DNA of 64,000 nucleotides from Terriglobales bacterium (lineage in GTDB: Bacteria > Acidobacteriota > Terriglobia > Terriglobales > Acidobacteriaceae), in assembly GCA_035573675.1 (NCBI GenBank), contig DATMAB010000010.1, positions 62,001-126,000 of the forward strand, read 5' to 3'. Below, piece by piece: positions 26,730-48,792 of the stretch. The notes under the pieces are model-generated. The model was not told where the DNA came from. It ran no database searches and saw nothing but the letters and a program-made list of their open reading frames with translations. The first letter of the stretch is position 1; every line of letters begins with the position of its first letter. The translations under genes were made by a program, and so were the position numbers.

Positions 26730-27455
26730 CTAGTCGCGCCCGGCCTCGATGAGTTTTTCCGCCAGACCCTTGGGGTTGGTGAAGATCACTTCATGGCTGC
26801 CGGGCATCTGCACCAGGCGGCAGAGTCCCAGGCGGCTGGACATGCGCGGATGCCAGCCCCATTCGCCGGGAGGAAGGGCGATGTCCTCGGTGCAGTTGAG
26901 GTAGCTGCGCGGAATCTCGAGCGAATAGAACTTCTTCATGTCCAGCTTGTCCTGGAAGGGCTGGTAGGGCTCGGGTGAAAGGGATTCGTAGGCGGACTTG
27001 GCGAGGGCGAGGTCGGCGTCGTTGATGAAAGCCTCGCGCCAGATGGGAAAGGGCGCCATGACGGTGTGGTCGGCAGATTCCCGGGCGAGCCGGTCGAACA
27101 ACTCACGATAGTAGGGCGGAATCTCATCGAGCAAACAGTTGCCGTCCTGGAGCACGAAGGCGTTCCAGAAGACCAGCCGGCGAATGCGCTCCGGCATGAC
27201 TTCGGCGACCTTGGCGATGATGGTGCCGCCGAAGCTGTGTCCCACCAGGACGAAGTCGCGCACGTCATTGCTCACAATGTAGTCGACGATGGACTGTGTG
27301 CACTGCGCGTGGTTGACGGCCTTGTTGCTGCCTTTGCCGTGCCCCGCGATGGTGGGCGTGAAGGCGGTGTGCCCCGCAGCCTTCAAGTGCTGGGTGGTCT
27401 GGCTCCAAGCACTGCCGCTGTGCCATGAGCCGTGAATCAGGACGAATTTCGCCAT
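26730..27455 (-). CDS. Alpha/beta hydrolase (methylesterase/hydroxynitrile-lyase-like)
   Basis: 241 residues. FVLIHGSWHSGSAW starts the fold, followed by the nucleophile elbow GHSFGG (Ser about 91) and a C-terminal MPGSHEVIFTNP with the catalytic His (about 223). An Asp in the later strands (NCTEDIALPP) is the likely acid. The size and the opening HGSWHSGSAW resemble plant-type methylesterase/hydroxynitrile lyase relatives and N-formylmaleamate deformylases. It is the first gene (3' end) of the minus-strand catabolic block, immediately downstream of an isochorismatase-family gene, a pairing also seen in N-heteroaromatic degradation. The substrate is inferred only from context. Confidence 0.88.
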   Translation of the reverse strand: MAKFVLIHGSWHSGSAWSQTTQHLKAAGHTAFTPTIAGHGKGSNKAVNHAQCTQSIVDYIVSNDVRDFVLVGHSFGGTIIAKVAEVMPERIRRLVFWNAFVLQDGNCLLDEIPPYYRELFDRLARESADHTVMAPFPIWREAFINDADLALAKSAYESLSPEPYQPFQDKLDMKKFYSLEIPRSYLNCTEDIALPPGEWGWHPRMSSRLGLCRLVQMPGSHEVIFTNPKGLAEKLIEAGRD

Positions 27456-27495
27456 CTGCCAACTCCTGTGGAGGTCACGCGGTCATGGATGTCAC

Positions 27496-28170
27496 TCAAC
27501 GTTGAGCGTCGCGGTGGGAGGATTGTGCGGTAGCACCAGCCATCGCTCCTTCCATCTCCGCCAGAAGCTGGTCGGTGGTCATCACGCGGCCGAAGAGCAG
27601 CTCGATGTTGCGCAGCGTAGCCTCGTGCATGGTTGCGTCAAAGGTGGCGTTCGCGTCGCTGGGGAAGGCCACCTGGTAGTCGCGCATGAACGCGGAGCGC
27701 GCGGTGGATTCGCAGCAGGCGTTGGTCGCTGTCCCGGTGATGATCACGGTGTCGATGTTGTGGTAGCGAAGGATGGCGTCCAGATCGGTCTCGAAGAAGG
27801 CATCGAACTTGTGCTTCACGATGCGGTACTCGTGCGCGCCCTCCTGCGGCTGGAGCATGTCGGGGTACATCTCGAAGCTGGGCTCGCCGCTCCACAGCAC
27901 CCGCTGTTCCTGAATAATGGGGAACTTGCGCAGCATCAAGCCGCCGTAGGGTGGCCGGTGGTCGGACTGCGTCCAGACGATGGGCATCCGCTGTTCCCGG
28001 GCGAAGCGGATCAGGCGCTCCAGGCGCGGCAGCATGGCGCGCGCTCTGGGCGTTTCGAAGGGAGCGCCCTCGGCGACGAAGGCATTCTGCATGTCAATGA
28101 CGATGAGGGCGGTTCGCCGGGGATCGACGGTGAAGAAATCGCTTCCGGAGGCTTTCAGATTGGACGACAT
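27496..28170 (-). CDS. Isochorismatase-family cysteine hydrolase (amidohydrolase)
   Basis: 224 residues. Catalytic residues of the cysteine-hydrolase group are present: Asp26 (VIDMQNAF), Lys119 (VKHKFDAF) and Cys152 (ATNACCEST). These are the triad of nicotinamidase, maleamate amidase, N-carbamoylsarcosine amidase and peroxyureidoacrylate/ureidoacrylate amidohydrolase. There is no second, aryl-carrier domain, so it is not an EntB-type isochorismatase. It lies between a nitrilase-like gene and an alpha/beta hydrolase on the same strand. An amide-to-acid step late in degradation of a nitrogen heterocycle would fit. ATG 28170 is used; the longer upstream frame overlaps the nitrilase gene. Confidence 0.9.
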   Translation of the reverse strand: MSSNLKASGSDFFTVDPRRTALIVIDMQNAFVAEGAPFETPRARAMLPRLERLIRFAREQRMPIVWTQSDHRPPYGGLMLRKFPIIQEQRVLWSGEPSFEMYPDMLQPQEGAHEYRIVKHKFDAFFETDLDAILRYHNIDTVIITGTATNACCESTARSAFMRDYQVAFPSDANATFDATMHEATLRNIELLFGRVMTTDQLLAEMEGAMAGATAQSSHRDAQR

Positions 28171-28214: not shown

Positions 28215-29282
28215 TCAGCGGCCGGGTTTCTTCCAGATACCGCGGTCGTGCATGAGACGGATCTGGCGCTTGATGACCCTGGAGCGGTACTCGGCATGCT
28301 TCATCGGTTCCCGCTTGAGGTACAGGTTCTTGGGGTAAATGGGTTTCTCGTACACGATCTGGTAAAGCTCCGTGCGCAAGTCCTTCAGCCAGTTGTCCCA
28401 TTGGGCGCGGGCGCGATGGTCGCGCAGGGCCTCGATGTCGATGACCCCGGCCACGTAGGTGGAGCAGCCGCTGTATTCCTGCCGGCCCACGATCTGTCCC
28501 TTGTAGTTGAAGATGAACGAGCGGCCGCCGAAGGTGTCGATCGCGGTGGTGCTGTCCGGAAACAGATAGTACGTGCCCAGGTTGGGAGCTACGACATAGA
28601 AATTGTTGTCCAGGGCGCGGGCGCGACTCTGAATCTCGAAAAATTCGTTTCCCGTGCCGGGGTGGGGATAGGAGGCGCGATAGACGACTTCGGCGCCGTT
28701 CAGCGCCAAGGCGCGGGCGTTCTCCGGATACGACCCCTCGTTGGCCATCATGATGCCCAGGCGGCCGATCTCGGTATCCACTACCGGCCAGAAGGCGTCG
28801 AGATTGCGGCCGTACTTTTCAATCCACCAGTCGTACACATCATGCGGACAGACGGAATGCTCGACCGGAAACAGCGGCGAGACCTTGTAATGCTTGAGGA
28901 TGACTTTCCCGCGCGGGTTGATGACGAAGCCGACATTGAAGAAGCGGTCTTTCAGCTCCGGGTGGCGGGCCTTGGCCTGCGCCATGATGAAGGCGTTGTA
29001 TTCACGCGCGATCTTGCCCAGTTCCTCGGTTTCTTCGCCGGGGATGTCGATGGCGCATTTGCGGGCGAACTCGACGTGGTCGAGGTCGAGGACCTCGTCG
29101 TTGAAGGCCTGCAACGCGCCTTCCGGCAGCGCAATGAGACGCACGGGGATGTCGAGCGCCGAGAGCCAACTGGCAGCCTTCACCAGATGCTTGATGTGCT
29201 CGAGGTTGATCCTGATGTCCTTGCGGCTGCGGATGCCGCGCACGGTGGGGATGAGTCCGACTGCCGTATAGGGCTTGATCAT
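28215..29282 (-). CDS. Nitrilase-superfamily protein lacking the catalytic cysteine
   Basis: 355 residues, full length, with the carbon-nitrogen hydrolase fold. Glu54 (LPEGALQAF) and Lys133 (HYKVSP) of the Glu-Lys-Cys triad are present, but the cysteine position in the segment GIMMANEGSYPE is Ala180, encoded by GCC. In its paralogue at 41027-42151 the same place reads IICMEGSYPE. The rest is highly similar (PGEETE, EIGR, NGAE, SYP, ARALDN, TAIDTFGG). The sequence is not otherwise decayed. It is probably a pseudo-enzyme or uses another residue. ATG 29282 follows AGGAAA. It lies between an isochorismatase-family gene and a TonB-dependent receptor gene on the same strand. Confidence 0.88.
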   Translation of the reverse strand: MIKPYTAVGLIPTVRGIRSRKDIRINLEHIKHLVKAASWLSALDIPVRLIALPEGALQAFNDEVLDLDHVEFARKCAIDIPGEETEELGKIAREYNAFIMAQAKARHPELKDRFFNVGFVINPRGKVILKHYKVSPLFPVEHSVCPHDVYDWWIEKYGRNLDAFWPVVDTEIGRLGIMMANEGSYPENARALALNGAEVVYRASYPHPGTGNEFFEIQSRARALDNNFYVVAPNLGTYYLFPDSTTAIDTFGGRSFIFNYKGQIVGRQEYSGCSTYVAGVIDIEALRDHRARAQWDNWLKDLRTELYQIVYEKPIYPKNLYLKREPMKHAEYRSRVIKRQIRLMHDRGIWKKPGR

Positions 29283-29381: not shown

Positions 29382-32300
29382 CTAGAAGCTCAAGCGGAAG
29401 GATAACTGGATCTGGCGCGCCGGCGCCGCGAACTTGGGCGACCCAAAGCCAGCGGGCGTGGTGATGCCATCGCCGAATTCCCGGGGAACCGGCGTGACGA
29501 AATCGGGCGCCCCATACACGTGGTTGACGTCCTGCACGTTGACGATGTTGAACAGGTTGAAGAACTCCACGCTGAAGTCGCCGCGGATCCGCTCGCTGAA
29601 GGGGATGCCGCGCTGGACGCGAAGGTCCAGGTTGAAGTAGGGATCTCCCTTGTAGGTGTTGCGGCCGATGGTCCCGACGCGATCGGAGAACGGGAACAAA
29701 TCGCCGTTGGTGTCGAAACCGGCGTTGATGGTGAAGTAGCGGGCGCTCTGTGCGCTCATCAGGATGGAGGACTTGAAATCGCGCAACACGCGCGGCCACT
29801 GCCTGGGCGACTCGCCGAGCACGGCCACCGTGACGCGATGGCGGATGTCGTTATCGCCGATGGCGCGGTCCAGGTCGTGCCGCAGGTAGTTTTCCGGCAC
29901 GTTGGGCAGGTTGATGGTGGTGGAGATGTCGATGGACTTGGAGTAGGTGTAGTTGGCCAGGATGCTGTAGTGGTTGGCAAAGTTCTTGCGCAGGCTGGCC
30001 GTGCCCGCGTGGTAGATGGAGAATCCCACCGGGTGCACGTACAGCGTAAAGCCAAAACTGGGATCCGCCGGACAGAAGGTCTCCTTGCCGAGCGGCGTGG
30101 GAGCCACGGAACCCGCCGGCGCACAGGGCAGAGGCAGTCCCGTGATGGGGTCGCGTCCATTGGGATTCGGCAGTCCGTTCACGCTGTCGTAGACCGGCAA
30201 CTGCAGCGCGTGGATGTACTGATACCCGGCAGAAACGAACCAGTTCTTGCCCAGCTCATGTTCCAGTTCCAAGCTGGCCAGTTGCGAATAGGCGTTGGGG
30301 AAGTCCCGCTTGGCGTAGCCCAGCGGAAACTGGAGCGGGAAGGGACCGATGGGCGTGGGGTAAGCTCCGGTGGTTGCAAAATTGAAGAAGGCGGAAGGGC
30401 CGGGAAAGATACCCGACGGCAGCCCCACAGCCCCGGAAGCGCCGAATCCGATCAGAGTGTTATTAGGATCGGAGAATTCAGGAAGTAGGGGAGGGCCGAA
30501 CGGACCGACGTTGGTGTCCAGCATATACGTGAACTCCGAAGCGCCGATCCAGCTCACCAGGATGTCGCTGTAGACGAAAGGGGCGTTGAAGAGCCCATAG
30601 CCGCCGCGCAAGACGTCCTTGCCTCCCCGGAACGAGTAGGCAAACGACACGCGCGGCTGGAAGTTGTTGTAATCGGTGGTGTGGAACCTGCCCGGGCTCA
30701 CCAGGTCGGGGCCGGTGGTCTTGGTATCGACTGCGGAAGGCAGGACATCGACGTCGTAGCGAAGGCCGAAGGTCAGGCTCAGGTTGGGCTTCACACGCCA
30801 CTGGTCCTGCACGTAGAGCGAGTAGAGCTTGTGAACGTAGCTGACGCGCGTGCTGGCGTCGAAGATGGGCGCCGCCGGGCCGGTGAACAGGTCGCTGAAG
30901 AACGGAGCAGTGCGCGCGGGGATGGGCTGGCCGAAGAATTCACGCGGTTCCAGGAACAGAAAGACCTCTTCGATGGGCTGCGTGACCCCGGGACGGCACC
31001 CGGAAATAGGCACGCCAAAGAAGCCGTCGGGGCAGAAGACTCCGAATCCCGGGGTGAACAGCGGCACCTGCGTGTTGGTCCACACGGGGTGGATTTCGCC
31101 GCCGAATCTCACCGTGTGCTTGCCGTGAGTCCAGGTGACATTCTCGGCGAACTGCACCCGCTGCTCGCGGTAGAAACGGACGCTGCCCACGAATCCGCCA
31201 CCGGAGAGCAGATTGGGAATACTGATGGCGGGCTCGAGCCCCGCGCCCTTGGGGATGAGGTCGAAGGTGCGGCGGCCGTACTGTAACAGCGTGCTGCTGG
31301 TCCACTCCGGCGAAAAGACGTGAACCAGGTTGGTGTACACCGTCTGGTCGCGCACCGGATTGTCCCGGTAGGAAGAAGGCAGGCCTTCGCCCGGAGGTGC
31401 GCCGCGCACGTTCTCCTTGCGGGTGTCGTTGAACAGGTAGCCGATGTTCCAAAACGTGCGTTCGCTCAAGACGTTGTTGATCTTGATGAAGAATTTATCG
31501 TAGTTGTCCACGGAGAGGATGGAGCCCAGCGTCTCCGGCTGCAGGCCGAAGAACTGCTTGGTTCCGTTGATGCTGAGGCAGGCGGGATTGAAGGTTCCGG
31601 GCGGCGGCAACACCGGGCACGTCGCCGGATTCGGGTTGATGGTGTTCAGGATGAAGCTGGAATAGATGGGCGACTCAGCCCGCCGCTGGCCTTCATACCC
31701 GGCGAAGAAGAAGTTCTTCTCCTTGCGCAGCGGGCCACCCAGCGTGCCTCCGAACTGATTAAAACGCAGGGTGGTGAATCCGGGCGCGGAGAGCAGGTTG
31801 TTGGCGTTGAGCGCGTCGTTGCGAAAATACTCGTACAAAGTGCCGTGCAGGTCGTTGGTGCCGGACTTGGTGATGGTGTTGACTACCGAACCCAGGCTGC
31901 GTCCGGTATCGGCGTTATAGGGGCTTTCCACCACGCGGAACTCCTGCACCCAGTCCTGCGACGGGCTGACGCGCTGCACGCCGGAGATGCTGGTGGTGTA
32001 GTCCAGGCCGTCGAGGGCGAAGAAGGAGGTATGGCTCTCGCGCGTGCCTCCGAAGCTCAGCTTCAGGACGGTCTCGGTGAAAGGAGATTGGGCGCCGACC
32101 GCCGTGCTGCGGCCGACCGCCACCGACGGGGTGAGCAGCACGAAGTCGATGAAGTCGCGCCCGGAGATAGGCAGGTCGGCGATCTTGCGCGACTCGATGA
32201 CCTGGCTGACATCGGATTTTTCCGGATCGATGGCCTGGGCGGTTTCCTGCACCTCGACTTCCTGGCGCACTTCAATCCCCAACCGGACCGTCAAGGTCGC

Positions 32301-32594
32301 GGTCTGGCCGACCGAAAGCTGCACGGGAACGGTGCGGGCAGTGAAGGTCTTGGCCTCGGCGGTCAGTTCATAGCTGCCTGCGGGTACGCCAGCAATTACC
32401 GCCAGACCGTTGGCGTCGGTGACGGCAGTTCGCCGAGCGCCGGTTTCCGTGTTCTTCAGTGTGACGTTAGCGCCGGGAACCACCGCGCCGGTGGAATCGT
32501 CTACCGTCAACTTCAAGGTCGCCAACTGTTGCCCGAAGGCGCTGACTGCAAGCAACAACACTGTGCAAGCGACTGCCCAACCGCGTCGAAGCAT
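29382..32594 (-). CDS. Oar-like TonB-dependent outer-membrane receptor 1
   Basis: 1070 residues. It has a signal peptide (about 1-21, ending FGQQ), a carboxypeptidase-regulatory (CarboxypepD_reg) beta-sandwich at about 23-105, a plug domain at about 115-240 (ADLPISGRDFIDFVLLTP, VVNTITKSGTNDLHG), and a long beta-barrel ending RQIQLSFRLSF with the C-terminal aromatic. This is the large Oar/TonB type that is multiplied in Acidobacteriota and thought to import oligomers or bulky organic compounds. It has a close paralogue at 36471-39596 sharing the VLPPPGTFNPAC.SINGTK and DALNANN segments. The genes on both sides encode candidate catabolic enzymes, so uptake of the substrate is a likely job. ATG 32594 is chosen for the signal peptide. 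Confidence 0.93.
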   Translation of the reverse strand: MLRRGWAVACTVLLLAVSAFGQQLATLKLTVDDSTGAVVPGANVTLKNTETGARRTAVTDANGLAVIAGVPAGSYELTAEAKTFTARTVPVQLSVGQTATLTVRLGIEVRQEVEVQETAQAIDPEKSDVSQVIESRKIADLPISGRDFIDFVLLTPSVAVGRSTAVGAQSPFTETVLKLSFGGTRESHTSFFALDGLDYTTSISGVQRVSPSQDWVQEFRVVESPYNADTGRSLGSVVNTITKSGTNDLHGTLYEYFRNDALNANNLLSAPGFTTLRFNQFGGTLGGPLRKEKNFFFAGYEGQRRAESPIYSSFILNTINPNPATCPVLPPPGTFNPACLSINGTKQFFGLQPETLGSILSVDNYDKFFIKINNVLSERTFWNIGYLFNDTRKENVRGAPPGEGLPSSYRDNPVRDQTVYTNLVHVFSPEWTSSTLLQYGRRTFDLIPKGAGLEPAISIPNLLSGGGFVGSVRFYREQRVQFAENVTWTHGKHTVRFGGEIHPVWTNTQVPLFTPGFGVFCPDGFFGVPISGCRPGVTQPIEEVFLFLEPREFFGQPIPARTAPFFSDLFTGPAAPIFDASTRVSYVHKLYSLYVQDQWRVKPNLSLTFGLRYDVDVLPSAVDTKTTGPDLVSPGRFHTTDYNNFQPRVSFAYSFRGGKDVLRGGYGLFNAPFVYSDILVSWIGASEFTYMLDTNVGPFGPPLLPEFSDPNNTLIGFGASGAVGLPSGIFPGPSAFFNFATTGAYPTPIGPFPLQFPLGYAKRDFPNAYSQLASLELEHELGKNWFVSAGYQYIHALQLPVYDSVNGLPNPNGRDPITGLPLPCAPAGSVAPTPLGKETFCPADPSFGFTLYVHPVGFSIYHAGTASLRKNFANHYSILANYTYSKSIDISTTINLPNVPENYLRHDLDRAIGDNDIRHRVTVAVLGESPRQWPRVLRDFKSSILMSAQSARYFTINAGFDTNGDLFPFSDRVGTIGRNTYKGDPYFNLDLRVQRGIPFSERIRGDFSVEFFNLFNIVNVQDVNHVYGAPDFVTPVPREFGDGITTPAGFGSPKFAAPARQIQLSFRLSF

Positions 32595-32718
32595 GGCCCT
32601 AGTCCCCCTGTGCAAGGCCGGAAGTCTGTCACTAAGGCTCGTGCAAATCAAGCGGAATCTTACGTTTAGCGGATGATGCCTCGAGGTCGACGCGAATCGG
32701 CGAAATGCCTGAAGCCGA

Positions 32719-35046
32719 TCAGAGCTTTCCCAGGCCGGCCAGGATCTTTTCCGGCGTGATGGGCAGGTCGCGCACGCGCACACCCACAGCGTCGTAGATG
32801 GCGTTGGCGATGGCGGGCGCGGGAACGATGAGACAGGATTCCGCCAACGACTTGGCGCCGAACGGACCTGTGGGCTCATTCGATTCTACGAAGATGCTTT
32901 CGATCTTCGGCGGCATCTCCATCGCTGTGGGCATCTTGTAGCTCAGGAAGTCGGCAGCCAGGCAGGCTCCATTGGAGTGATCAAAGGTCAGATTCTCCAT
33001 CAGTGCGTAGCCCAGCCCTTGCTGGAAGCCGCCCTCGACCTGGCCCTCGGCACCGGCGGGATGAATCACACGTCCGATGTCGTGAGCGAACACCACGCGC
33101 AGCACCTTGACCTCGCCGGTTTCCGTGTCGACCTCGACTTCGACGAACTCGGCCGTGGCCGGAGAAGGATTGGACGCCGGGGCCAGCGAGGCCATCCCCA
33201 TGATGGTGCCCTTCTGCTCGAGCGACGTCTTGCTCATGCCGTCGGGGACCATCTGGATGTACGGGGATTCCGCCTGCTTCACGACGCTCGCGATGGGAAC
33301 GGAGCGGTCAGGAGATGCTTTGACCCGTACGCAGCCGTCGGCGGTTTCCAGGTCCTCCGGCGCGGCCTGGAGCATGGGTGCGGCGACCGCCAGCAGCCGC
33401 TTCTTCGCAGCAGCGGCGGCGGCCCGGACGGCGTTCCCGGAAGAATAGGTCACGCGGCTGGCGTGGCTGGGAGCGTCAAAGGGCACGGTCTCCGTGTCGG
33501 CGTAGGTGACGCGCACGGCCTCGACGGGAACTCCCAGTTCCTCGGCAGCAATCTGGCCCAACACCGTGTTCTGCCCGCAGCCCATGTCGATGGTCGCGGT
33601 GGATAGATCGACGCTGCCATCGACGTTGAGCTTGAGAATGGCCCCGGAATGCTCATAGATATCCGGGAATCCCACGCAACCGCTTACCCAAAGCGGCTGG
33701 CAGGCGAAGCCGACGCCGCGGCGTTTAGTTCCATTGGAGCGGTGGGTGGGCCGGTCGTGCCAGCCGATCCTGGCTGCGCCCTGCTGCAGGCAGTCCGCGA
33801 GCCGATAGGTCGAAAGCTTGAACGAGGGCTCGAACGGGTGTGGCTCGCCTTCCTTGTGCGCGTTCTTCAGTCGGAACTCGATGGGGTCGAGCTTGAGTTG
33901 ATGGCAAATCTCATCGATCTGCGACTCCATGGCAAAGGCCGCCTGGGGAGCGCCGTAGCCGCGGAAGCCGCCGCCGATCATGTTGTTGGTATAGACCGAG
34001 CAGCCCTCCCACTTCTGGTTGGGGCAACGATAGGGCAGCAGGAACCCGTAGAAGCCATGCACCATCAGGACCACGGCGCCATGCGTAGCGTGCGATCCCG
34101 TATCCAGGATGCTCCGCGCATAGCGAGCGGTGAATGTGCCGTCTTTCTTAACCCCAGTCTTCAGGTGGATCTTGATGGGATTGCGCGCGGTGGTGATGAA
34201 GTCTTCGTAGCGGGTGTGCTCGGCGCGCACGGGGCGGCCGGTCTTCCGGCTGAGCAGCGCGCAGATGGGCTCGATGAAGCCCATGTCGAGCTTGCCGCCG
34301 AATCCGCCGCCGATGTACGGCGGTTTCACCACTTTCACCTTGCCCACCGGGATGCCGAGAGCAAAGGCCAGCTTCTCACGCAAGCCGAAAAGGTGCTGCG
34401 TGGAGGACCAGACGGTCAGGTTCCCGTGCACGTCGCTGTCTACGATGCAGACGCGGGGTTCCATGTAGCAGGTGTGCACGCGCTGTGTCTGGTACGTGTT
34501 TTCGAAGATGAAGTCGGCTTCAGCAAAGCCCTTCTCCAGATCGCCGAAAGTGAACGAAGGGTTGAGGGCGATGTTGTTGGGGGCATGTTCGTGGATCTGC
34601 GGAGCGCCGGGCTTCATGGCCTCCTCAGGATCGAAGACGGCGGGAAGCTGCTGGTACTCGACGTGAATCAGCTCGGTGGCCCTTTCCGCAATCTCCGGCC
34701 GGGTGGCGGCGACCGCCGCAACCGGCTCGCCGGCGAAGCGCACCGTGTCGCTCAGGATCAGCATGTCGCGCACCATGCTGCGGGCCTCGCTGGGAGCGAA
34801 ATAGACCGGGTGGAACTTGATCTTGGGCACTTCGGACGGAACCAGCACGGCCTTCACGCCGGGCAGCCGCTCGGCCTCGGAGGTGTCGATGCGCAGGATG
34901 CGGGCATGCGGGTAGGGGCTGCGCAGCACCTTGGCATGCAGCATGCCAGGCAGGCGAAGGTTGACGACATAGCCCTTGCCGCCCGTGACCTTGTCGTAGG
35001 CATCGGGCTTGGGAACGGTCTTCCCAACCGCGCGTAACGTGGACAT
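32719..35046 (-). CDS. Xanthine dehydrogenase-family molybdenum hydroxylase, large subunit
   Basis: 775 residues. It opens with VGKTVPKPDAYDKVTGGKGYVVNLRLPGMLHAKVLRSPYPHA, typical of the Mo-binding subunit, and continues with PYIGGGFGGKLD, GGGFRGYGAPQ, MGCGQNTVLGQIAAEELGV, AHDIGRVIHPAGAEGQVEGG and, near the C-terminus, GAKSLAES with the catalytic Glu. It is a hydroxylase that adds oxygen from water to an aromatic or N-heterocyclic carbon. The small (35061) and FAD-type (35541) subunits follow on the same strand, the usual three-gene set. ATG 35046 follows AGGAA. No maturation chaperone is adjacent. Confidence 0.93.
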   Translation of the reverse strand: MSTLRAVGKTVPKPDAYDKVTGGKGYVVNLRLPGMLHAKVLRSPYPHARILRIDTSEAERLPGVKAVLVPSEVPKIKFHPVYFAPSEARSMVRDMLILSDTVRFAGEPVAAVAATRPEIAERATELIHVEYQQLPAVFDPEEAMKPGAPQIHEHAPNNIALNPSFTFGDLEKGFAEADFIFENTYQTQRVHTCYMEPRVCIVDSDVHGNLTVWSSTQHLFGLREKLAFALGIPVGKVKVVKPPYIGGGFGGKLDMGFIEPICALLSRKTGRPVRAEHTRYEDFITTARNPIKIHLKTGVKKDGTFTARYARSILDTGSHATHGAVVLMVHGFYGFLLPYRCPNQKWEGCSVYTNNMIGGGFRGYGAPQAAFAMESQIDEICHQLKLDPIEFRLKNAHKEGEPHPFEPSFKLSTYRLADCLQQGAARIGWHDRPTHRSNGTKRRGVGFACQPLWVSGCVGFPDIYEHSGAILKLNVDGSVDLSTATIDMGCGQNTVLGQIAAEELGVPVEAVRVTYADTETVPFDAPSHASRVTYSSGNAVRAAAAAAKKRLLAVAAPMLQAAPEDLETADGCVRVKASPDRSVPIASVVKQAESPYIQMVPDGMSKTSLEQKGTIMGMASLAPASNPSPATAEFVEVEVDTETGEVKVLRVVFAHDIGRVIHPAGAEGQVEGGFQQGLGYALMENLTFDHSNGACLAADFLSYKMPTAMEMPPKIESIFVESNEPTGPFGAKSLAESCLIVPAPAIANAIYDAVGVRVRDLPITPEKILAGLGKL

Positions 35047-35060
35047 GGTTCCTGCCTTTT

Positions 35061-35525
35061 TCAACGGTGGGACGCAGTCATACGGACTGCGTCCACGATC
35101 TTCTGGTAGCCGGTACAGCGGCACAGATTGCCGGCGATCCCCTCGCGAATCTCCTCATCGCTGGGCGAAGCGCATTCCGACAAGAAGGCCTTGGCCGCGA
35201 GAATCATTCCGCAGGTGCAGTAGCCGCACTGCACGGCGCCGGTGTGTACGAACGCTTCCTGCAAGGGGTCGAGTTTGCCGTCGGTCTCCAGTCCTTCGAT
35301 GGTGGTGATGCTCTTGCCTTGGGCCGACATGGCAAAGAGCATGCAGGAATACGCGGCGCGGCCATCGACCAGCACCGTGCAGCAGCCGCAGCCACCGGTG
35401 TCGCACCCTTTCTTGGCGCCCATCAGGCCCAGCTCTTCGCGCAGCACGTGAAGGAGCGTGTCCTGCGGCTCGGCCATCACCTCGTGAGTCTCGCCGTTGA
35501 CGGCAAGGCGGATGACTTGCTTCAT
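35061..35525 (-). CDS. Molybdenum hydroxylase 2Fe-2S subunit
   Basis: 154 residues. The plant-type [2Fe-2S] cluster motif has Cys41, Cys46, Cys49 and Cys61 (GCDTGGCGCCT...SC). The second all-alpha domain has the C-x2-C...C-x-C set Cys100, Cys103, Cys135 and Cys137 (QCGYCTCG, NLCRCTGY). Both are standard for the small subunit of xanthine dehydrogenase-family hydroxylases. It passes electrons from the Mo centre to FAD. It lies between the large and FAD-subunit genes in one operon; the 14-base gap to the large-subunit start is short. Confidence 0.95.
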   Translation of the reverse strand: MKQVIRLAVNGETHEVMAEPQDTLLHVLREELGLMGAKKGCDTGGCGCCTVLVDGRAAYSCMLFAMSAQGKSITTIEGLETDGKLDPLQEAFVHTGAVQCGYCTCGMILAAKAFLSECASPSDEEIREGIAGNLCRCTGYQKIVDAVRMTASHR

Positions 35526-42151: not shown

Positions 42152-42279
42152 ATCCACCTCCTTGGTCGTGACCGAGTTGATTCGCTGATACGACGCAACG
42201 GCGATTCCTGGAGTCGAGAAGAGTTCCGGGAGATGCTCATTCCATACCTGGCGGCGGCCGCTGTCAACTCGTCAGGCGG

Positions 42280-43518
42280 CTAGGCGACTGAGGCCTCCTT
42301 CTGCAGCCGCTGGATGAGCAAATCAGCTTCCGCAGCACTGAACCACCATGGGCTGTAATCCGGCGGGTTGTTAAACCCGTTGGCAATGCGGCTGGCCAGG
42401 GCGGGAATCTGGCTGGCGGCGCCCATCAGTTGCAGGATCTGGGGCTCCGGCGGCACCAGCAGTGAGTTCGTCCAGCGCACCACCCACTGCGCGTAATCCC
42501 AGAAGGCATCGAAAGTGCCCTGCATCCAGGCGGCATCGAACGGCTTCGAGCCGCGCTCCAGGATGCGATCCATGTACACCTTGGCCGCCTTGCTGGCGGT
42601 GTTCGAGCCCTGGCCGGTGATAGGGTCGTTGAGCACCACGACATCCGCCATCCCAAGCGCCAGGCCACCGCCGGGTAGCTTGCAGATGGGCTTGCGAACG
42701 GTTGGGGCGAAGCGACCCACCAGGATTCCCATTTCGTCGGTGAGCTCGATATTGCGGCAGCGCTCGGCTTCCCAGGGCAGAAACTTCGCCAAAATCTCCC
42801 TGCTGCGGGCCAGGTGCTGCTGCGGCGTCTTGACGTCTTGCCAGCAGTCCATGGGCCCGCCGACCACGCCTTCGAACACCATGATCTCGCACTCGCCGTT
42901 GAGCGTGAGAGCGGGGAAAACAAAATATTCGCCGACGCCGGGGATCAGGCTGAATGCCACCGCCGTGTAGGGCGTGCGCGGCACCATGTTCTTTACATAT
43001 GTGAGCGCCAGAGCCCGCATGGGCGTGGAGTAAGGGGAACGTGAGTCGTCGCGCTCGAACATCCGGGCGATCTCTCCCTTACCGGCGGCCACCAGTACAA
43101 GGTCGTGGGTACGGGCATATTCGTCCAGGTGTTCGGGGCCGGCGTCCTCGATCAGCACCCTGCCGCCGCGACGGGCAAACTCTTCCATCCATCCTGCGAA
43201 CTTCACGCGCTGGTCGACGGACTGGCCGTAATGGTCGAGCCGGGCTTCCCAGAACAGAGCGCGGCTGCCATCGGGGCCGGGAATGGAAAAGGCAATCCCT
43301 TCCGTGATGGGACATTGTTTTTCCCAGAAGTTGATGCCGAGGTCGCGTTCGTTCTGCAGCGAATCGTGGAACATGAACTGGCTGGAGGTCACGCGGCCGG
43401 CACGGATCTGCTCGGGCGTCCGGTTCGAAACCACGGTGACGTCGTAGTCGCGCTGCTGGAGTCCCAGCGCCAACTGCAGGCCGGACTGTCCAGCGCCGAC
43501 AATGGCAATCTTCCTCAT
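42280..43518 (-). CDS. Styrene/indole monooxygenase-type FAD oxygenase (StyA-like) 1
   Basis: 412 residues. The FAD-binding start is KIAIVGAGQSGLQLALGL, GAGQSG at 8-13. It shares the StyA pattern (FEGVVGGPMDC, VVVLNDPITGQGSNTASKAAKVYMD, and a C-terminal WTN.LL.PPEP). StyA enzymes use FADH2 from a separate reductase to epoxidise a vinyl or indole double bond. No reductase gene stands directly beside this copy, but the neighbouring divergent gene has a reductase fused to a second StyA-like part. It is transcribed divergently from that gene across a 191-base gap that carries a CGAATCG dyad. Confidence 0.9.
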   Translation of the reverse strand: MRKIAIVGAGQSGLQLALGLQQRDYDVTVVSNRTPEQIRAGRVTSSQFMFHDSLQNERDLGINFWEKQCPITEGIAFSIPGPDGSRALFWEARLDHYGQSVDQRVKFAGWMEEFARRGGRVLIEDAGPEHLDEYARTHDLVLVAAGKGEIARMFERDDSRSPYSTPMRALALTYVKNMVPRTPYTAVAFSLIPGVGEYFVFPALTLNGECEIMVFEGVVGGPMDCWQDVKTPQQHLARSREILAKFLPWEAERCRNIELTDEMGILVGRFAPTVRKPICKLPGGGLALGMADVVVLNDPITGQGSNTASKAAKVYMDRILERGSKPFDAAWMQGTFDAFWDYAQWVVRWTNSLLVPPEPQILQLMGAASQIPALASRIANGFNNPPDYSPWWFSAAEADLLIQRLQKEASVA

Positions 43519-43551
43519 GGAAAAGTTTTTCTCCCCTGCTTCCTGGAGCTG

Positions 43552-43575
43552 CGAATCGTTCGGTCCGGCGATTCG
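43552..43575. promoter_or_regulatory. Inverted repeat in divergent monooxygenase gap
   Basis: CGAATCG, ten bases, CGATTCG: a perfect 7-bp dyad between the two divergent monooxygenase genes. The size fits an operator. No regulator gene is adjacent. Confidence 0.4.
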
Positions 43576-43709
43576 TCCGCGGAGCCGGCGTCGATGGGGT
43601 GCCCACTATACCCGAGAGCCGCGCTGATTTCATCCCTCGTCGGATGTTCCCTTGTCCCTCCCCAACCTGCGTGATAGGTTTGCATGCTTCGTTCCAGGGC
43701 CCCGGTGGA

Positions 43710-45434
43710 ATGAAACGCATCGCCATCATTGGCGCCGGCCAGTCCGGCCTGCAGTTGGGCCTCGGCCTGCTGGCCAGCGGCTATCAGGTCACCCTCTATT
43801 CCGGCCGCTCGGCGGCGGAAATCCACGACGGGCCGGTCATGTCCAGCCAGTGCATGTTCGATTCCGCCCTGGAAGCCGAGCGCGCCCTGGGCCTGAACTT
43901 CTGGGAGGAGAAGTGTCCCCGCGTGGAGGGTATGGGATTCGCCGTGCCCGACGGCCTGGGCGGCAAGGTAGTCGATTGGGCCGCACGGCTGGATGATTAC
44001 GCCCAGTCCGTGGACCTGCGCCTGAAGGTGTCGCACTGGATGACCGAGTTCGAGCGCCGCGGCGGCGAACTGCACATCAAGGAAGCCGACCTCGACGACT
44101 TGGAACACTGTGCGCGCGATCACGACCTGGTGATCGTGGCCGCCGGCAAGGGCGCCATCGGGCAACTTTTCGAACGCGACGCCGAGCGCTCCCCGTATGA
44201 CAAGCCGCAGCGCGCTCTGGCGCTCACCTATGTGCGCAACATGGTTCCGCGCCAGCCCTTCAGCCTGGTTTCCTTCAACCTGATCCCGCAGGTCGGCGAG
44301 TACTTCGCGTTTCCCGCTCTTACCACCAGCGGATCCTGCGACATCATGACCTTCGAGGGCGTGGTCGGCGGGCCGATGGATTGTTGGCACGACGTCCAGA
44401 CACCGGAGCAGCACCTAGCCCGCAGCAAGCAGATCCTGGAACGCTGGCTTCCCTGGGAAGCGGAGCGCTGCCGGGAGATCGAACTCACGGACCCGAACGG
44501 CGTCCTGACCGGCCGCTTTGCGCCCGTAGTTCGCAAGCCGGTGGCCAGGCTTCCTTCCGGGCGCTACGTGCTGGGCATGGCGGACACCGTGGTGTTGAAC
44601 GATCCCATCACGGGGCAAGGCTCGAACAACGCCGCCAAGTGCGCGGAATCCTATCTGGAGAGCATCCTGGAACGCGGCCAGCGCCCGCCCGATCCCGAGT
44701 GGATGCAGCAGACCTTCGACCGCTACTGGACGGGTTACGCAAAGTGGGTAACCGAGTGGACCAACCTCATGCTGAATCCACCGGCGCACGTGATGAAGAT
44801 CCTGGCGGCCTGCGGCAGGATCACGGCGGTGGCGCGGGCGTTCGTGAACGGCTTCGACGATCCGCGGACTTTCTTTCCCTGGTTTATGGAAGCCGCGGAA
44901 GCGGAGAAATTCATTCAGCAGGAAGCCAAGGCGGTGGCCGACCGCTTCGATCGGCGCGATTACCGGCGAGCTCTGGGCCAGTTCGCCACCGGAGTCACCG
45001 TGGTCACAGCCTGCACGCCGGACGGCCGCCGCGTGGGCATTACCGTGAACTCGTTTTCTTCGGTCTCGCTCGACCCGCCGCTCATCTTGTGGAGCGTGGC
45101 ACGGAATGCGGGCAGCTTCCAGGATTTCTGCAGTGCGACCCACTTCGCGGTCAACGTGCTCGAGGCGCGTCAGCATCATCTTTCCCGCCAGTTCTCCACC
45201 CCGATGGCCGACAAGTTCGCCGGCGTGGAGTGCTCGGAAGGCAGGGCGGGCTGTCCGCTGCTGAGCGGCGCGGTGGCCTACTTCGTCTGCCGCAAAGTGA
45301 GGCAGTATGACGGCGGCGACCACGTCATCCTGCTGGGCGAGGTGGAGGAATACAAGTACCAGGAAGGCGAACCGCTGGTGTTTCACTCCGGCCGGTATCG
45401 CGTGGCAACCCGCCACCCTGATATTCCAGATTAG
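43710..45434 (+). CDS. Self-sufficient styrene-monooxygenase-type fusion (StyA2B-like)
   Basis: 574 residues. Residues 1-405 are a StyA-type FAD monooxygenase (RIAIIGAGQSGLQLGLGL at 3-20, FEGVVGGPMDCW, VVLNDPITGQGSNNAAK). Residues of about 416-574 are a flavin reductase of the FMN-binding split-barrel type (RRALGQFATGVTVVTA, NSFSSVSLDPPLILWSV, FAVNVLEARQHHLSRQF, GDHVILLGEVEE). The reductase part makes reduced FAD and the oxygenase part uses it, in one chain. Such fusions are known from actinobacterial styrene/indole epoxidation (StyA2B). ATG 43710 is preceded by GGTGGA. The oxygenase halves of this protein and of its neighbour at 42280 are closely related. Confidence 0.93.
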   Translation: MKRIAIIGAGQSGLQLGLGLLASGYQVTLYSGRSAAEIHDGPVMSSQCMFDSALEAERALGLNFWEEKCPRVEGMGFAVPDGLGGKVVDWAARLDDYAQSVDLRLKVSHWMTEFERRGGELHIKEADLDDLEHCARDHDLVIVAAGKGAIGQLFERDAERSPYDKPQRALALTYVRNMVPRQPFSLVSFNLIPQVGEYFAFPALTTSGSCDIMTFEGVVGGPMDCWHDVQTPEQHLARSKQILERWLPWEAERCREIELTDPNGVLTGRFAPVVRKPVARLPSGRYVLGMADTVVLNDPITGQGSNNAAKCAESYLESILERGQRPPDPEWMQQTFDRYWTGYAKWVTEWTNLMLNPPAHVMKILAACGRITAVARAFVNGFDDPRTFFPWFMEAAEAEKFIQQEAKAVADRFDRRDYRRALGQFATGVTVVTACTPDGRRVGITVNSFSSVSLDPPLILWSVARNAGSFQDFCSATHFAVNVLEARQHHLSRQFSTPMADKFAGVECSEGRAGCPLLSGAVAYFVCRKVRQYDGGDHVILLGEVEEYKYQEGEPLVFHSGRYRVATRHPDIPD

Positions 45435-45451: not shown

Positions 45452-46534
45452 GTGGGATCGAACGGACTGGGAGTTTTCCTGGAGGCTCTGCCCCTGGGCG
45501 AGGTCCGGCGTTTTGCCCGCCTCGCCGATGCGTGCGGCTGGCAGAACGCGTGGTTTCCGGAAATCACGTTCGGCGACGCCTTCGTGCCGGCTGCTGCAGC
45601 GGCGCTGGAAACCAGTCGCCTCTGCCTCGCGACCGGCGTCGTCGGTATCTGGAGCCGTTCTCCCGTCGCCATGGCCTTGACGGCGGCGAGCCTCAGCCAG
45701 CTCTGCCCCGGACGCATGATTCTGGGGCTGGGATTGCAAGCCCGCTCTTACGTCGAGGACTGGCATGGCGCCCGCTACGCCAAGACCCTTACGGCCATGC
45801 GCGAATATGTGACCATCCTGCGGCGTATCCTCGGGGGGGAATCTGTCACCTTCGAAGGCGAGGTGTTCCGGGTCAGGAACTTCCAGCTCCAGGTGCTGCC
45901 TCCCGACCCGCCCGTCCCCATTTACCTGGCCGCCATCGGGCCCAAGATGGCCCACCTGGCAGGCGAGATGGCCGATGGCATCCTGGGTTATTTCTATTCG
46001 CTGCCGTACCTGAGTAACGTGGTGGTGCCGAATATCCGTGCGGGCGCGGCGCGGGCCGGACGTTCACTCGACCATTTCGATATTGCCTGCGGCCTGCCCG
46101 CCATCGTCAGCCGCGACGACCGCGCTCTCGAGCAGATCAAGGGACAGGTGCTGATGTTCGCCACCGCCGGCGGCTCTTCACCTTATTACGCCGAGAGCTT
46201 TGTGCAGGCCGGTTACGGCAACCAGGTCCGCCAGATCCAGGACCTCGCCGCCCGCGGCGAACTGAAGCGAGCGCTGCGCGTCGTAACCGACGACATGGCC
46301 GCGGCCTTCACCCTGGCAGGCACGCCGGAGTACGTGCGTCGACGCATTGCCGAGTATCGCGCCGCCGGCGCGACCACGGTGGTGCTTAATCCTTCTCCGC
46401 CGGACGTCTATTTCCCGCTTTTTCAGGGACACTTCCCGGATGGCGCGGAAATGCCGCCGTTCTCTTTTCCGGCTTACCTGAAAGTGATCGGCGACGCGAT
46501 TGAGCTGATGGGAGGTGAATCACCGGGGCGATGA
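45452..46534 (+). CDS. LLM-class flavin-dependent oxidoreductase
   Basis: 360 residues with a luciferase-like TIM-barrel: LGVFLEALPLGEVRRFARLADACGW, ATGVVGIWSRSPVAMALTAASL, PGRMILGLGLQARS, LPPDPPVPIYLAAIGPKMAHLAGEMADG. These segments match F420- or FMN-dependent enzymes of the bacterial luciferase superfamily, such as methylene-tetrahydromethanopterin reductase relatives. The cofactor choice cannot be told. GTG 45452 is the start. It begins 17 bases after the fusion monooxygenase and its stop overlaps the start of the next flavoprotein (ATGA at 46531-46534), so this is a translated operon. Confidence 0.88.
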   Translation: MGSNGLGVFLEALPLGEVRRFARLADACGWQNAWFPEITFGDAFVPAAAAALETSRLCLATGVVGIWSRSPVAMALTAASLSQLCPGRMILGLGLQARSYVEDWHGARYAKTLTAMREYVTILRRILGGESVTFEGEVFRVRNFQLQVLPPDPPVPIYLAAIGPKMAHLAGEMADGILGYFYSLPYLSNVVVPNIRAGAARAGRSLDHFDIACGLPAIVSRDDRALEQIKGQVLMFATAGGSSPYYAESFVQAGYGNQVRQIQDLAARGELKRALRVVTDDMAAAFTLAGTPEYVRRRIAEYRAAGATTVVLNPSPPDVYFPLFQGHFPDGAEMPPFSFPAYLKVIGDAIELMGGESPGR

Positions 46535-47973
46535 GAAAGGTAGCCATCATTGGAGCCGGTCAGGCGGGCCTGCTGATTGCGCACGCGCTGCGACGGCACG
46601 GGTATGACGTCAGCCTCTTCTCCGACAAGACCCCGGACGACTTCCTGAATCGCAGCCGGCCCACGGGCACGGCGGCGCGTTTCGATATGTCGCTGGAGTG
46701 GGAGCGTGAGCTCGGCATGAACCACTGGGACCACCTGGCGCCCAAAGGCGAAGGCGTGCACCTGACGTTCGTTCCCGGCGCGCTGGGCAACGTGCTGCTC
46801 ACGCTGATGGGACGGCTGACCCGTCCTTTCCTCGCCATCGACCTGCGCTTGCAGAGCGCGCGCTGGATCGAGGACCTGAAGAAGATCGGCGGCAAGGTGA
46901 CGGTCGAGGACGTGACTATCCCCCGCCTGGAGGAGATTGCCGCTGCGCACGACCTGACTATCGTGGCCGCCGGCCGCGGCCCGGTCATGAAGCTGTTTGC
47001 GCGCGACGAGCGCCGCAGCACCTACACCAAGCCGCCGCGGTTCCTCGCCATGGTCAACGTGGTCGGCATCCCCATGTACCGTGACTATTGTCCGTTCCTG
47101 CCGGTGAAGTTCAACTTCTTCGGACGATACGGCGAGTGCTTCTGGGTCCCCTGGTTCCACAAGGACGGCCATCAGGCCTGGAGCTGTGTGTTCGAAGCCA
47201 AAGAGGGCGGTCCCATGGACCAGTTTCGCGGCGCCAAGACCGGCGCCGAAGCTCTGGCCATTGCCAAGAAAGTTACGCGCGAGATGGTGACCTGGGACGC
47301 GGAGTGGCTCAAGAACGCCGAGCTGGCCGATGAGAACTCTTGGCTGGTAGGAAGCTTCGTGCCCGAAGTGCGCAAGGTCGTGGGCGTCCTGCCCTCCGGC
47401 CGTGCCGTGATTGCGGTGGGCGACACGGCGCACTCGCTCGACCCCATTGGCGGGCAGGGCGCCAACAACGGCAACAAGATGGCGCGCAACCTGGTGCAGT
47501 GCATCCTGGAGCGCCAGGACCAACCCTTCGACGTGCCCTGGATGGAGAGCACCTTCGAGCGCTTCTGGGCGCGGCACCGCTTCATCGACTTGTTCAACAA
47601 CACGCTGCTCGAACCGCTGACCGACCCCGGCAAGGAGCTGCTGATCGCTCAGTATGGTTCCAGTGGGCTGCTCGACGATGCCAGTGGCTGTCAGGCCATC
47701 GCCAATGCCTTCGTCGAGAACTTTAATGACCCCGCTTACATCACCGAAGCCTTTCACGACATGGCCGAGGTGCGCGCGCTGATCCGGAGGCTCACCGGCC
47801 GGCACTGGCTGTGGTCGGCCCTGCGGGGAAGGACTAAGATTGCCGTCGCGCAGGCGCGCCAGGCCATGGGACTGCCTTCCGGACATCCCGGCACCGAGCC
47901 GGTGCCGCCGGGACGTCGCTTCTGGGAGACCGGGAACGAACCGCAGGCGCCGCAAGCGGCCGCTGGCGCCTGA
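46531..47973 (+). CDS. Styrene/indole monooxygenase-type FAD oxygenase (StyA-like) 3
   Basis: 480 residues, longer than the other two copies because of a C-terminal helical and Pro-rich extension (after about 415). The FAD motif GAGQAGLLIAHAL is at 8-20, and VAVGDTAHSLDPIGGQGANNGNKMA is the second flavin-binding region. It is more distant from the two other StyA-like proteins, which share longer blocks. The start overlaps the LLM-class gene stop (ATGA). It may use reduced flavin made by the reductase half of the fusion protein, and it could act at a different ring position. No reductase domain is present in this copy. Confidence 0.88.
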   Translation: MRKVAIIGAGQAGLLIAHALRRHGYDVSLFSDKTPDDFLNRSRPTGTAARFDMSLEWERELGMNHWDHLAPKGEGVHLTFVPGALGNVLLTLMGRLTRPFLAIDLRLQSARWIEDLKKIGGKVTVEDVTIPRLEEIAAAHDLTIVAAGRGPVMKLFARDERRSTYTKPPRFLAMVNVVGIPMYRDYCPFLPVKFNFFGRYGECFWVPWFHKDGHQAWSCVFEAKEGGPMDQFRGAKTGAEALAIAKKVTREMVTWDAEWLKNAELADENSWLVGSFVPEVRKVVGVLPSGRAVIAVGDTAHSLDPIGGQGANNGNKMARNLVQCILERQDQPFDVPWMESTFERFWARHRFIDLFNNTLLEPLTDPGKELLIAQYGSSGLLDDASGCQAIANAFVENFNDPAYITEAFHDMAEVRALIRRLTGRHWLWSALRGRTKIAVAQARQAMGLPSGHPGTEPVPPGRRFWETGNEPQAPQAAAGA

Positions 47974-48003
47974 GATCACAAGACCACAAGGGAGACGCCA
48001 AGC

Positions 48004-48792
48004 ATGCAGGGACTCAAGGGCAAGGTTGCGATCGTCACCGGCGGCAGCACGCTGCTGGGTCAGGGAGTAGTGCGCGGGTTCGTCCGCGAAGGAGCGAAGG
48101 TGACGGTGGCGGACGTGGATGCCAAGGGCGGCCAGGCCATCGCCGCCGAGTTGGGCGAGAGCGTACTGTTCGTCCCCACCGATCTGCGCAACGACCAGCA
48201 GGTCGCCGCTTGCGTGGAACGCACCGTCCAGAAGTTCGGCGGCGTGGACTTCCTCATCAACCTGGCCTGCGTCTACACCGACGATGGCTTCGGCACCAGC
48301 CGCGAGAAATGGCTGGACGCGTTCAACGTGAACGTAGTTGGCGGCATCATCATGGCGCAGGCCTGCCGTCCGCACATGGTCAAGCGCGGCGGAGGCGCCA
48401 TCATCAACTTCGGCAGCGTCAGCGGCAAGATCGCCCAGCCCGGCCGCGCGGTCTACCCGGTCACCAAGGCGGCCATGATCCAGCTCACGCGCAACCAGGC
48501 GCTGGAGCTCGCCGCGGACAAGATCCGCGTCAACTCCGTTTCCCCGGGATGGATCTGGTGCCGCCTGATGAACGATTGGACCCACGGCGACCGCGACCTG
48601 ACCAACCAGGTGGGCGGCCGCTTCCACGCGCTCAGCCGCGTGGGCGATCCTGAAGAGGTCGCTCAGGCCGTGCTCTTCCTCTGCTCCGACGGTGCTTCCT
48701 TCATCACCGGGACCGACCTCGCCGTGGATGGCGGCTACACCGCCATCGGCCCGGAAGGAAAGGTCAACGCCATCCCAGAACTGATCCGATAG
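48004..48792 (+). CDS. Short-chain dehydrogenase/reductase (SDR)
   Basis: 262 residues, classical SDR. The cofactor motif is TGGSTLLGQG at about 12-21, with Asp (VADVDAKG) suggesting NAD+ preference. The catalytic Ser-Tyr-Lys is in FGSVSGKIAQPGRAVYPVTKAA (Tyr and Lys spaced YxxxK). The usual NNAG segment is NLAC, a small departure. It would oxidise an alcohol or cis-diol produced by the upstream monooxygenases. GGGAG lies ahead of ATG 48004. It is the last plus-strand gene of the island; a tRNA-Glu gene follows on the other strand. Confidence 0.92.
   Translation: MQGLKGKVAIVTGGSTLLGQGVVRGFVREGAKVTVADVDAKGGQAIAAELGESVLFVPTDLRNDQQVAACVERTVQKFGGVDFLINLACVYTDDGFGTSREKWLDAFNVNVVGGIIMAQACRPHMVKRGGGAIINFGSVSGKIAQPGRAVYPVTKAAMIQLTRNQALELAADKIRVNSVSPGWIWCRLMNDWTHGDRDLTNQVGGRFHALSRVGDPEEVAQAVLFLCSDGASFITGTDLAVDGGYTAIGPEGKVNAIPELIR

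Follow-up and report, generated by a model that had tools for sequence, protein, structure and literature searches.

We analysed a 64,000-nucleotide stretch of DNA from a Terriglobales bacterium (contig DATMAB010000010.1, positions 62,001 to 126,000; hereafter the window) and found that positions 26730-48792 hold a gene island built of a conserved core plus modules. The recurrent core comprises the oxygenase StyA1, a short-chain dehydrogenase/reductase (SDR), a flavin reductase, one Oar receptor, and NIT1, a protein of the nitrilase/amidase fold; the Mo hydroxylase, an LLM-class protein, a third oxygenase, an alpha/beta hydrolase and the other amidohydrolases are variable additions. Judging by homology, we consider it on balance probable that the island encodes a Terriglobia version of the upper pathway of indole oxidation (iif/ind), with NIT1 acting on a shared indole metabolite.

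The window belongs to contig C10 of a genome assembled into 28 contigs that total 3.16 Mb, and gene families were assigned to its proteins with Pfam and NCBIfam profiles. The 15 genes of the island form two blocks that diverge from the interval 43519-43709: the minus-strand block runs, from the centre outwards, through StyA1, NIT3, NIT2, OAR2, the Mo hydroxylase (FAD, FeS and Mo subunits), OAR1, NIT1, an isochorismatase-fold protein and the alpha/beta hydrolase, and the plus-strand block through StyA2B, the LLM-class protein, the third StyA-type protein and the SDR. Every family that the initial annotation listed for this region is present, including three CN_hydrolase, three StyA-type and two OMP_b-brl_4 proteins; to that inventory we add the reductase fusion in StyA2B, the Ala for Cys in NIT1 and the divergent two-block layout. 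The minus-strand open reading frames (ORFs) at 43515-44414 and 44415-45416 were rejected as genes, having no family match and being shadows of StyA2B. The core genes and a paralogue of NIT1 are as follows:

42280..43518, minus strand: StyA1-type indole monooxygenase (putative), divergent from StyA2B; 566 bits to structure 7z4x against 141 bits to the styrene monooxygenase StyA (3ihm).
43710..45434, plus strand: StyA2B-type fusion of putative indole-monooxygenase and flavin-reductase domains (Pfam Smoa_sbd and Flavin_Reduct); 652 bits to 7z4x against 122 bits to 3ihm, and 66% identical to a Variovorax fusion.
48004..48792, plus strand: SDR, kin of the IifB-type SDR adjoining indole monooxygenases; 55-61% identical to those of Burkholderia, Azospirillum and Variovorax.
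28215..29282, minus strand: NIT1, a nitrilase/amidase-fold protein in which Ala takes the place of the catalytic Cys; translation probably begins at the Met at 29282, the longest ORF reaching back to 29378.
29382..32879, minus strand: OAR1, TonB-dependent Oar-like receptor (OMP_b-brl_4, 1e-97); the real start is probably near 32600, where the alignment to relatives begins.
41027..42157, minus strand: NIT3, Cys-bearing paralogue of NIT1 (57%), formamidase/amidase-like by profile match and alignment.

The core recurs, in rearranged order, in 11 genomes, which represent two families or more. A search with StyA1 and StyA2B covered 100 relatives and gave nine genomes with at least 56% identity; a search with NIT1 through 399 genomes of the class at 1e-60 gave eight carriers, adding G280 and G360 and bringing the island genomes to 11 in all. 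Gene counts among these are lower bounds, contigs or stretches being cut in G042, G048, G053, G059 and G360. StyA1 was seen in all 11 (71-91% identical in the 10 others), OAR1 and NIT1 each in 10 (the G053 contig ends there), the SDR in nine (the G048 and G059 contigs start at StyA1), and a flavin-reductase domain at the locus in eight (that of G059 lies on a different contig, and the contigs of G042 and G048 are cut), a separate flavin reductase standing in G078 and G280 where other genomes have the StyA2B fusion. The remaining genes are patchier: NIT3 and the isochorismatase-fold gene each occur in 6/11, NIT2 in 5/11, the third StyA and the Mo block with OAR2 each in 3/11, and the LLM and alpha/beta hydrolase genes each in 2/11. 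In G078 the order OAR2-MoM-MoS-MoL is identical to that of the window.

Because StyA1, OAR1 and NIT1 lie in one locus in all eight NIT1-carrying genomes of the 399 searched, and because G001, from the same genus as the window genome, keeps the whole island at 75-93% protein identity, the grouping is more than chance. A collection of unrelated genes with no shared role could be argued from the variability of the accessory genes, the LLM and alpha/beta hydrolase genes having been seen in one genus only. This explanation is already contradicted for the core, however, by its recurrence across rearranged loci in at least two families, and the ratio of nonsynonymous to synonymous substitution rates (dN/dS) against G001 is 0.05-0.15 (0.051-0.154) for all 15 genes; we consider it very improbable. 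The earlier proposal that these genes belong together, to be judged by their order in other genomes, therefore stands for the core, which is not scattered, and only partly for the Mo block, LLM and alpha/beta hydrolase genes. Two local peculiarities were recorded among the relatives: NIT1 of G280 (L159:1625-2688) matches as two overlapping pieces (75 and 80% identity), perhaps through a frameshift or assembly error, and G005 (L023:11695-13254) has an FAD oxidoreductase beside StyA2B that is 51% identical to its counterpart in the Azospirillum indole-type cluster.

StyA1 and StyA2B are most likely an E2-type indole-monooxygenase pair in which StyA2B is fused to a flavin reductase. As listed above, both score far higher against 7z4x than against styrene monooxygenase; the Protein Data Bank name of 7z4x reads 'Putative dehydrogenase/oxygenase subunit', and we take it to be the Variovorax indole monooxygenase VpIndA1. 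The SDR, for its part, resembles SDRs encoded directly upstream of a StyA-type oxygenase (61% in Variovorax, 55% each in Azospirillum and Burkholderia). Excerpts of the literature describe comparable systems: a Rhodococcus StyA1/StyA2B system is classified as an indole monooxygenase (PMC13101518), VpStyA1 and VpStyA2B form indigo (PMC6017014), and a comparable cluster comprises a PF04199 cyclase, SDR, StyA, flavin reductase and AraC regulator (PMC9871250). In the iif pathway, as an excerpt of PMC6221969 gives it, IifC/IifD produce indole-2,3-dihydrodiol, the SDR IifB converts this to 3-hydroxyindolin-2-one, and IifA yields anthranilate; we infer that the PF04199 cyclase of the comparable cluster corresponds to IifA. 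The initial annotation had read the region as a catabolic island for a nitrogen-containing aromatic compound. The 7z4x scores and the SDR match support an N-heteroaromatic substrate, and they point to indole, not to nicotinate or quinoline.

By these relationships, the Oar-like receptors would bring the substrate in through the outer membrane, StyA1 and StyA2B, drawing on the fused reductase domain, would oxidise indole or a compound closely derived from it at the C2-C3 bond, and the SDR would oxidise the dihydrodiol to 3-hydroxyindolin-2-one, each as in characterised relatives. Where present, NIT3, NIT2 and the isochorismatase-fold enzyme might open or trim the oxidised ring or take nitrile or amide side-chain derivatives, and the Mo hydroxylase and third oxygenase are probably accessory.

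NIT1 is the best-conserved core protein. Outside the genus, across 15 island loci, it is 81-90% identical, compared with 71-80% for StyA1, 68-78% for StyA2B, 64-70% for the SDR and 55-65% for OAR1, and its dN/dS against G001 (0.053) is the second lowest of the 15 island genes. Given this low ratio and the highest identity across island loci, NIT1 is not a decaying gene. Aligned to Helicobacter pylori formamidase, it has Ala at the nucleophile position, where NIT3 has Cys; tested for the Cys-Glu-Lys triad of an active amidase, it retains Glu and Lys and lacks the Cys, the whole triad being present in the alignments of NIT2 and NIT3. The textbook Cys mechanism is closed to NIT1 by this replacement, and the 'deformylase-type' logic that had been suggested for the island is correspondingly weak, the best-conserved nitrilase homologue lacking the nucleophile. 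The best structural model (mean pLDDT 83.5, pTM 0.87; the other four models pLDDT 55-73) has the amidase/formamidase fold, with Z 31.3 and a root-mean-square deviation of 2.5 over 270 residues to 5g3o_F (VIA-align).

The change is shared well beyond this island. We fetched the best 80 of 195 relatives from one genome collection, all metagenome-assembled genomes; they are 69-90% identical to NIT1, come from Acidobacteriota, Rokubacteriota, Methylomirabilota, Chloroflexota, Dormibacterota, Proteobacteria and Actinomycetota, and have Ala at the catalytic position in 80/80. Across 34 aligned NIT1 rows the mean column identity is 80%, with Glu54, Lys133, Glu141 and Ala180 invariant. In a tree of 50 of 105 distinct sequences, chosen after removal of matches shorter than 250 residues and exact duplicates, one change separates 33 Ala from 17 Cys forms (support 100/99), and Glu, Lys and the second Glu are kept in all 50; the tree is rooted only at its midpoint, and the deep placements are uncertain on account of long branches such as that of Flammeovirga within the Ala forms. 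From the superfamily as a whole, Cys would be ancestral and Ala derived. In a sample of the phylum, NIT1 matches at 1e-100 were found in 5/396 genomes, of which only the window genome (G000) and G575 have the Ala form. The plasmid relatives carry the annotation 'nitrilase-related carbon-nitrogen hydrolase', Ala-type relatives of 53-55% identity lie on haloarchaeal plasmids (L052, L053 and L168), and NIT1 had no match in phages. An excerpt of PMC5541922 describes natural Cys-to-Ser forms in a vanin-like nitrilase-domain family. Among the matches listed for open-licence papers, we found no natural Cys-less nitrilase or nitrilase-superfamily pseudoenzyme described; nor did we find in such papers a description linking the nitrilase-superfamily catalytic cysteine with tryptophan synthase, or the combination of styrene monooxygenase, nitrilase and isochorismatase.

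To place NIT1 among its neighbours, we compared the 80 loci, of which 15 are island and 65 non-island and which appear to overlap with the 11 island genomes (in G005, G042, G048, G059, G086 and G360); the clade of each locus was taken from its sequence record. Neighbour families were built by clustering six-frame ORFs at an identity of at least 40%, with antisense ORFs disregarded and only representatives profiled against Pfam and NCBIfam. OAR1 adjoins NIT1 in 15/80 loci, once as a short fragment, and in two of the loci counted as island, L077 and L086, the contig is short and NIT1 is accompanied by OAR1 sequence alone. Outside the islands, NIT1 most often has a TrpB2-like gene as its neighbour, which was found within 8 kb in 33/65 non-island and 0/15 island loci; the representative of this gene family, in L091, scores 760 bits against the TrpB-like model (cut-off 366) and 471 bits against TrpB2 6hul, and the 33 members, assigned by clustering with it, are not independent (18 are from Rokubacteriota and seven from related marine Alphaproteobacteria). 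By clade, the gene lies within 8 kb in 18/28 loci of Rokubacteriota, 1/1 of Methylomirabilota, 2/2 of other Acidobacteriota, 9/12 of Alphaproteobacteria and 1/7 of others. The alphaproteobacterial genes are separated from NIT1 by 15-57 bp in eight of nine loci, with a 22 bp overlap of ORF and match in the ninth; these gaps run from the TrpB2-like ORF to the NIT1 match and are uncertain by a few bases, and in L124 and L126 the two touch or overlap. TrpB2 precedes NIT1 in L120 and L125 and follows it in L127-L133, and ABC-transporter genes lie between the two in several Rokubacteriota, so that the varied order speaks against one frozen arrangement. NIT1 is better conserved across phyla than its TrpB2-like neighbour in all 10 locus pairs compared, and no protein exceeded the TrpB-like cut-off in any of the 11 island genomes (0/11). 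A further association is seen on a Tsukamurella plasmid, where the stretch around a NIT1 relative (62%) encodes an SDR (53%), FAD oxidoreductase (43%), cyclase (52%) and AraC regulator (36%) related to the Azospirillum set, and no StyA-type gene was found in that stretch.

Since NIT1 occurs with both indole-oxidising and indole-to-tryptophan enzymes, we place it at the indole node: it would work on indole or a direct precursor, and may make, pass on or sense indole, possibly a new job in indole chemistry. Within the proposed indole pathway, NIT1 could use Glu-Lys acid-base chemistry, without a Cys acyl-enzyme, to release or present indole or a nucleophile that resembles it, and a close relative might serve a TrpB2-type tryptophan synthase in Rokubacteriota and Alphaproteobacteria. 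A broader proposal, which we hold only tentatively, is that NIT1 founds a widespread Cys-abandoning branch of the nitrilase fold, with a new reaction or a TrpA-like role supplying indole from an imported precursor, to TrpB2 in Rokubacteriota and Alphaproteobacteria or to the indole monooxygenase in Terriglobia; if true, tryptophan salvage and a catabolic route would share one unrecognised entry protein. One may postulate instead that NIT1 is a pseudo-amidase with a non-catalytic role, either as a binder of indole or as a scaffold or activator for TrpB2 and the oxygenase, by analogy with the activation of TrpB by TrpA. The single change between Cys and Ala forms on the tree, the strong purifying selection, and the short alphaproteobacterial gaps given above would all fit, and, going by the title of 6ypa, an amidase of known structure that carries this Cys-to-Ala replacement can still bind its amide. 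Glu, Lys and the second Glu, however, are kept in 50/50 rows although they would be superfluous in a pure scaffold, and the two kinds of partner, TrpB2 on the one hand and StyA with SDR on the other, come from unrelated families; we regard a non-catalytic role as rather unlikely.

Several observations weigh against an indole pathway or against the place of NIT1 in it. StyA-type enzymes also epoxidise styrene and oxidise sulfides, according to the excerpt of PMC6017014. The Azospirillum PF04199 cyclase had no match at 1e-8 in the window or the Terriglobia island stretches, the Azospirillum AraC-type regulator had none at the same threshold in any Terriglobia island stretch, and an intradiol dioxygenase was found in 3/11 island genomes and not in the other eight, the window genome included. 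The TrpB2-like gene lies within 8 kb of NIT1 in only 1/11 loci of Chloroflexota/Dormibacterota and 1/4 of Gammaproteobacteria, many of these contigs being short; two annotated haloarchaeal NIT1 stretches showed no indole-related neighbours; and in L094, L101, L107, L114 and L123 (Chloroflexota/Dormibacterota) NIT1 has a gene for a Mo-hydroxylase large subunit nearby, which in four of the five is on the other strand and starts about 1.1 kb from the start of the NIT1 match. Other neighbours of NIT1 outside the islands include a MtaA/CmuA-like methyltransferase (URO-D) with an F420-type LLM in Rokubacteriota (L080, L081, L083, L085, L087, L095, L103 and L119) and an adjoining aldehyde dehydrogenase gene in L137, L140, L142, L145, L146, L148 and L149 (Hyphomicrobiales/Afipia, Rhodocyclaceae and Gammaproteobacteria).

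An alternative explanation is that the island handles another substrate (styrene-like, an aryl sulfide or another N-heteroaromatic compound) and that the likeness to indole systems is only family resemblance. The same VpStyA1/VpStyA2B pair that forms indigo is titled an aryl alkyl sulfoxidase (PMC6017014), and the indole pathway presented in the excerpt of PMC6221969 has no step for a Mo hydroxylase or a true nitrilase. Yet the oxygenase is accompanied by an SDR whose relatives stand in similar clusters of other phyla, the Pfam and NCBIfam scans of the island genes recognised no styrene oxide isomerase, and the Mo block was seen in only 3/11 island genomes, so we judge another substrate fairly unlikely. 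The missing cyclase bears on a further scenario, in which NIT1 is the ring-opening or last enzyme, a substitute for IifA that converts 3-hydroxyindolin-2-one or isatin to anthranilate or isatinate. It would account for an island without the ind/iif cyclase, PF04199 proteins not having been found at all in G048, G078, G280 and G360 (the last only 65% complete), and the paralogue NIT3 retains Cys and is amidase-like; against this, the Tsukamurella stretch holds a cyclase and a NIT1 relative together, and a ring-opening enzyme would hardly be sensible beside TrpB2. We consider this substitution quite improbable. For the indole pathway proposed here, the last step may instead be supplied in trans, because PF04199 proteins occur elsewhere in 7/11 island genomes (27-41% to the Azospirillum cyclase).

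Of enzymes that might take anthranilate further, an intradiol dioxygenase was not found in 8/11 island genomes. Rieske oxygenases occur in 11/11 and are uninformative for ring cleavage, and the Tsukamurella salicylyl-CoA 5-hydroxylase has partial matches in 4/11; downstream cleavage by Rieske, intradiol or salicylyl-CoA 5-hydroxylase genes was rejected, as none links to the island. As to a source of indole, a tryptophanase/tyrosine phenol-lyase homologue is full-length in 5/11 island genomes and in pieces in one more. None exceeds the tryptophanase equivalog cut-off, and two, in relatives, score ambiguously between both enzymes; the homologue of the window genome (G000:C6:27603-28934) could make indole.

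The remaining genes of the island are the variable additions:

26730..27455, minus strand: alpha/beta hydrolase (Pfam), seen in no genome but that of the window and G001 of the same genus.
27496..28170, minus strand: isochorismatase-fold amidohydrolase, RutB/biuret-hydrolase-like; start taken at the Met ahead of the domain.
32719..35124, minus strand: MoL, large Mo-cofactor subunit of the Mo hydroxylase; XdhA/4-hydroxybenzoyl-CoA-reductase-like, under curated cut-offs.
35061..35525, minus strand: MoS, [2Fe-2S] subunit of the Mo hydroxylase (Pfam, NCBIfam).
35541..36428, minus strand: MoM, FAD subunit of the Mo hydroxylase (Pfam, NCBIfam).
36471..39596, minus strand: OAR2, second Oar-like receptor (OMP_b-brl_4), heading the Mo-hydroxylase block.
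39833..40948, minus strand: NIT2, of the true nitrilase branch, closest solved structure NitA 6zby.
45452..46534, plus strand: LLM-class flavoprotein, TIGR03841-like but under the cut-off; at this place only in the window genus.
46531..47973, plus strand: third, divergent StyA-type oxygenase, 38% identical to StyA2B.

The nicotinate-pathway logic earlier read into this set found no support: no NCBIfam model for a nicotinate-pathway Mo hydroxylase or maleamate amidase was passed, the coverage of each nicotinate step by NCBIfam being unchecked. Nicotinate, quinoline and pyrimidine (Rut) readings were all rejected for want of a pathway-specific model that passed; the best models for the Mo hydroxylase and isochorismatase-fold proteins are XdhA-, 4-hydroxybenzoyl-CoA-reductase- and RutB-like, all under cut-off, the isochorismatase-fold protein reaching 95 bits against a RutB cut-off of 378.

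At its right edge the island ends 42 bp before a tRNA-Glu (48834-48908). Integration of an element at this tRNA was rejected: the only copy of the tRNA-Glu 3' end in the window, allowing up to three mismatches, is the tRNA itself, with no direct repeat, and no integrase was found among the ORFs scanned by Pfam. GC content is 60-62% over 26-32 kb, 63-65% in the rest of the island and 63-68% outside, a slight dip only. Further right, at 51587-54357, Pfam identifies a RecA-fold gene and an IMS polymerase-family gene, perhaps a mutagenesis cassette, which we presume to be ImuA-like and ImuB-like.

If our reading holds, uncultured Acidobacteriota own a form of indole catabolism that is missed by the iif/ind markers, the cyclase and AraC regulator, and the function of NIT1 is open to direct tests through its association with two indole-consuming systems that are unrelated to each other. 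Set against known systems, the island shares superfamilies with the nicotinate and Rut pathways (Mo hydroxylase; isochorismatase fold, LLM and flavin reductase), but no member passes a pathway-specific model. TrpB2 tryptophan synthases (6hul, 4qys and 6hte) match the kind of the commonest non-island neighbour of NIT1 and are not part of the island. NIT1 itself has the fold and the Glu-Lys-Glu of the amidase/formamidase branch (AmiF 2dyu, 2e2k and 5g3o), whereas it is 19-25% identical to the top solved members and the clade seen here has Ala for Cys. The vanin/biotinidase forms, in the excerpt of PMC5541922, likewise have a naturally changed nucleophile position; theirs, however, is Ser, a possible nucleophile, and of several origins, whereas for the Ala of NIT1 one change suffices. 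The E2-type systems of Variovorax and Rhodococcus (IndA1/IndA2B) resemble the island in a stand-alone oxygenase with a neighbouring oxygenase-reductase fusion, but in the island StyA1 and StyA2B are divergently transcribed, with amidohydrolases around them. With the iif/ind cluster of Acinetobacter, Cupriavidus and Providencia (excerpts of PMC6221969 and PMC9871250) the island shares the StyA-type oxygenase, flavin reductase and SDR, and the claim that no known pathway has this combination accordingly holds for the whole set and not for its first half, which resembles the iif/ind upper pathway. Because neither the cyclase nor the AraC regulator was found in it, we do not class the island as an iif/ind member; it differs too in that its reductase is fused and its oxygenase doubled, and it adds Oar receptors, amidase-fold proteins and a Mo hydroxylase.

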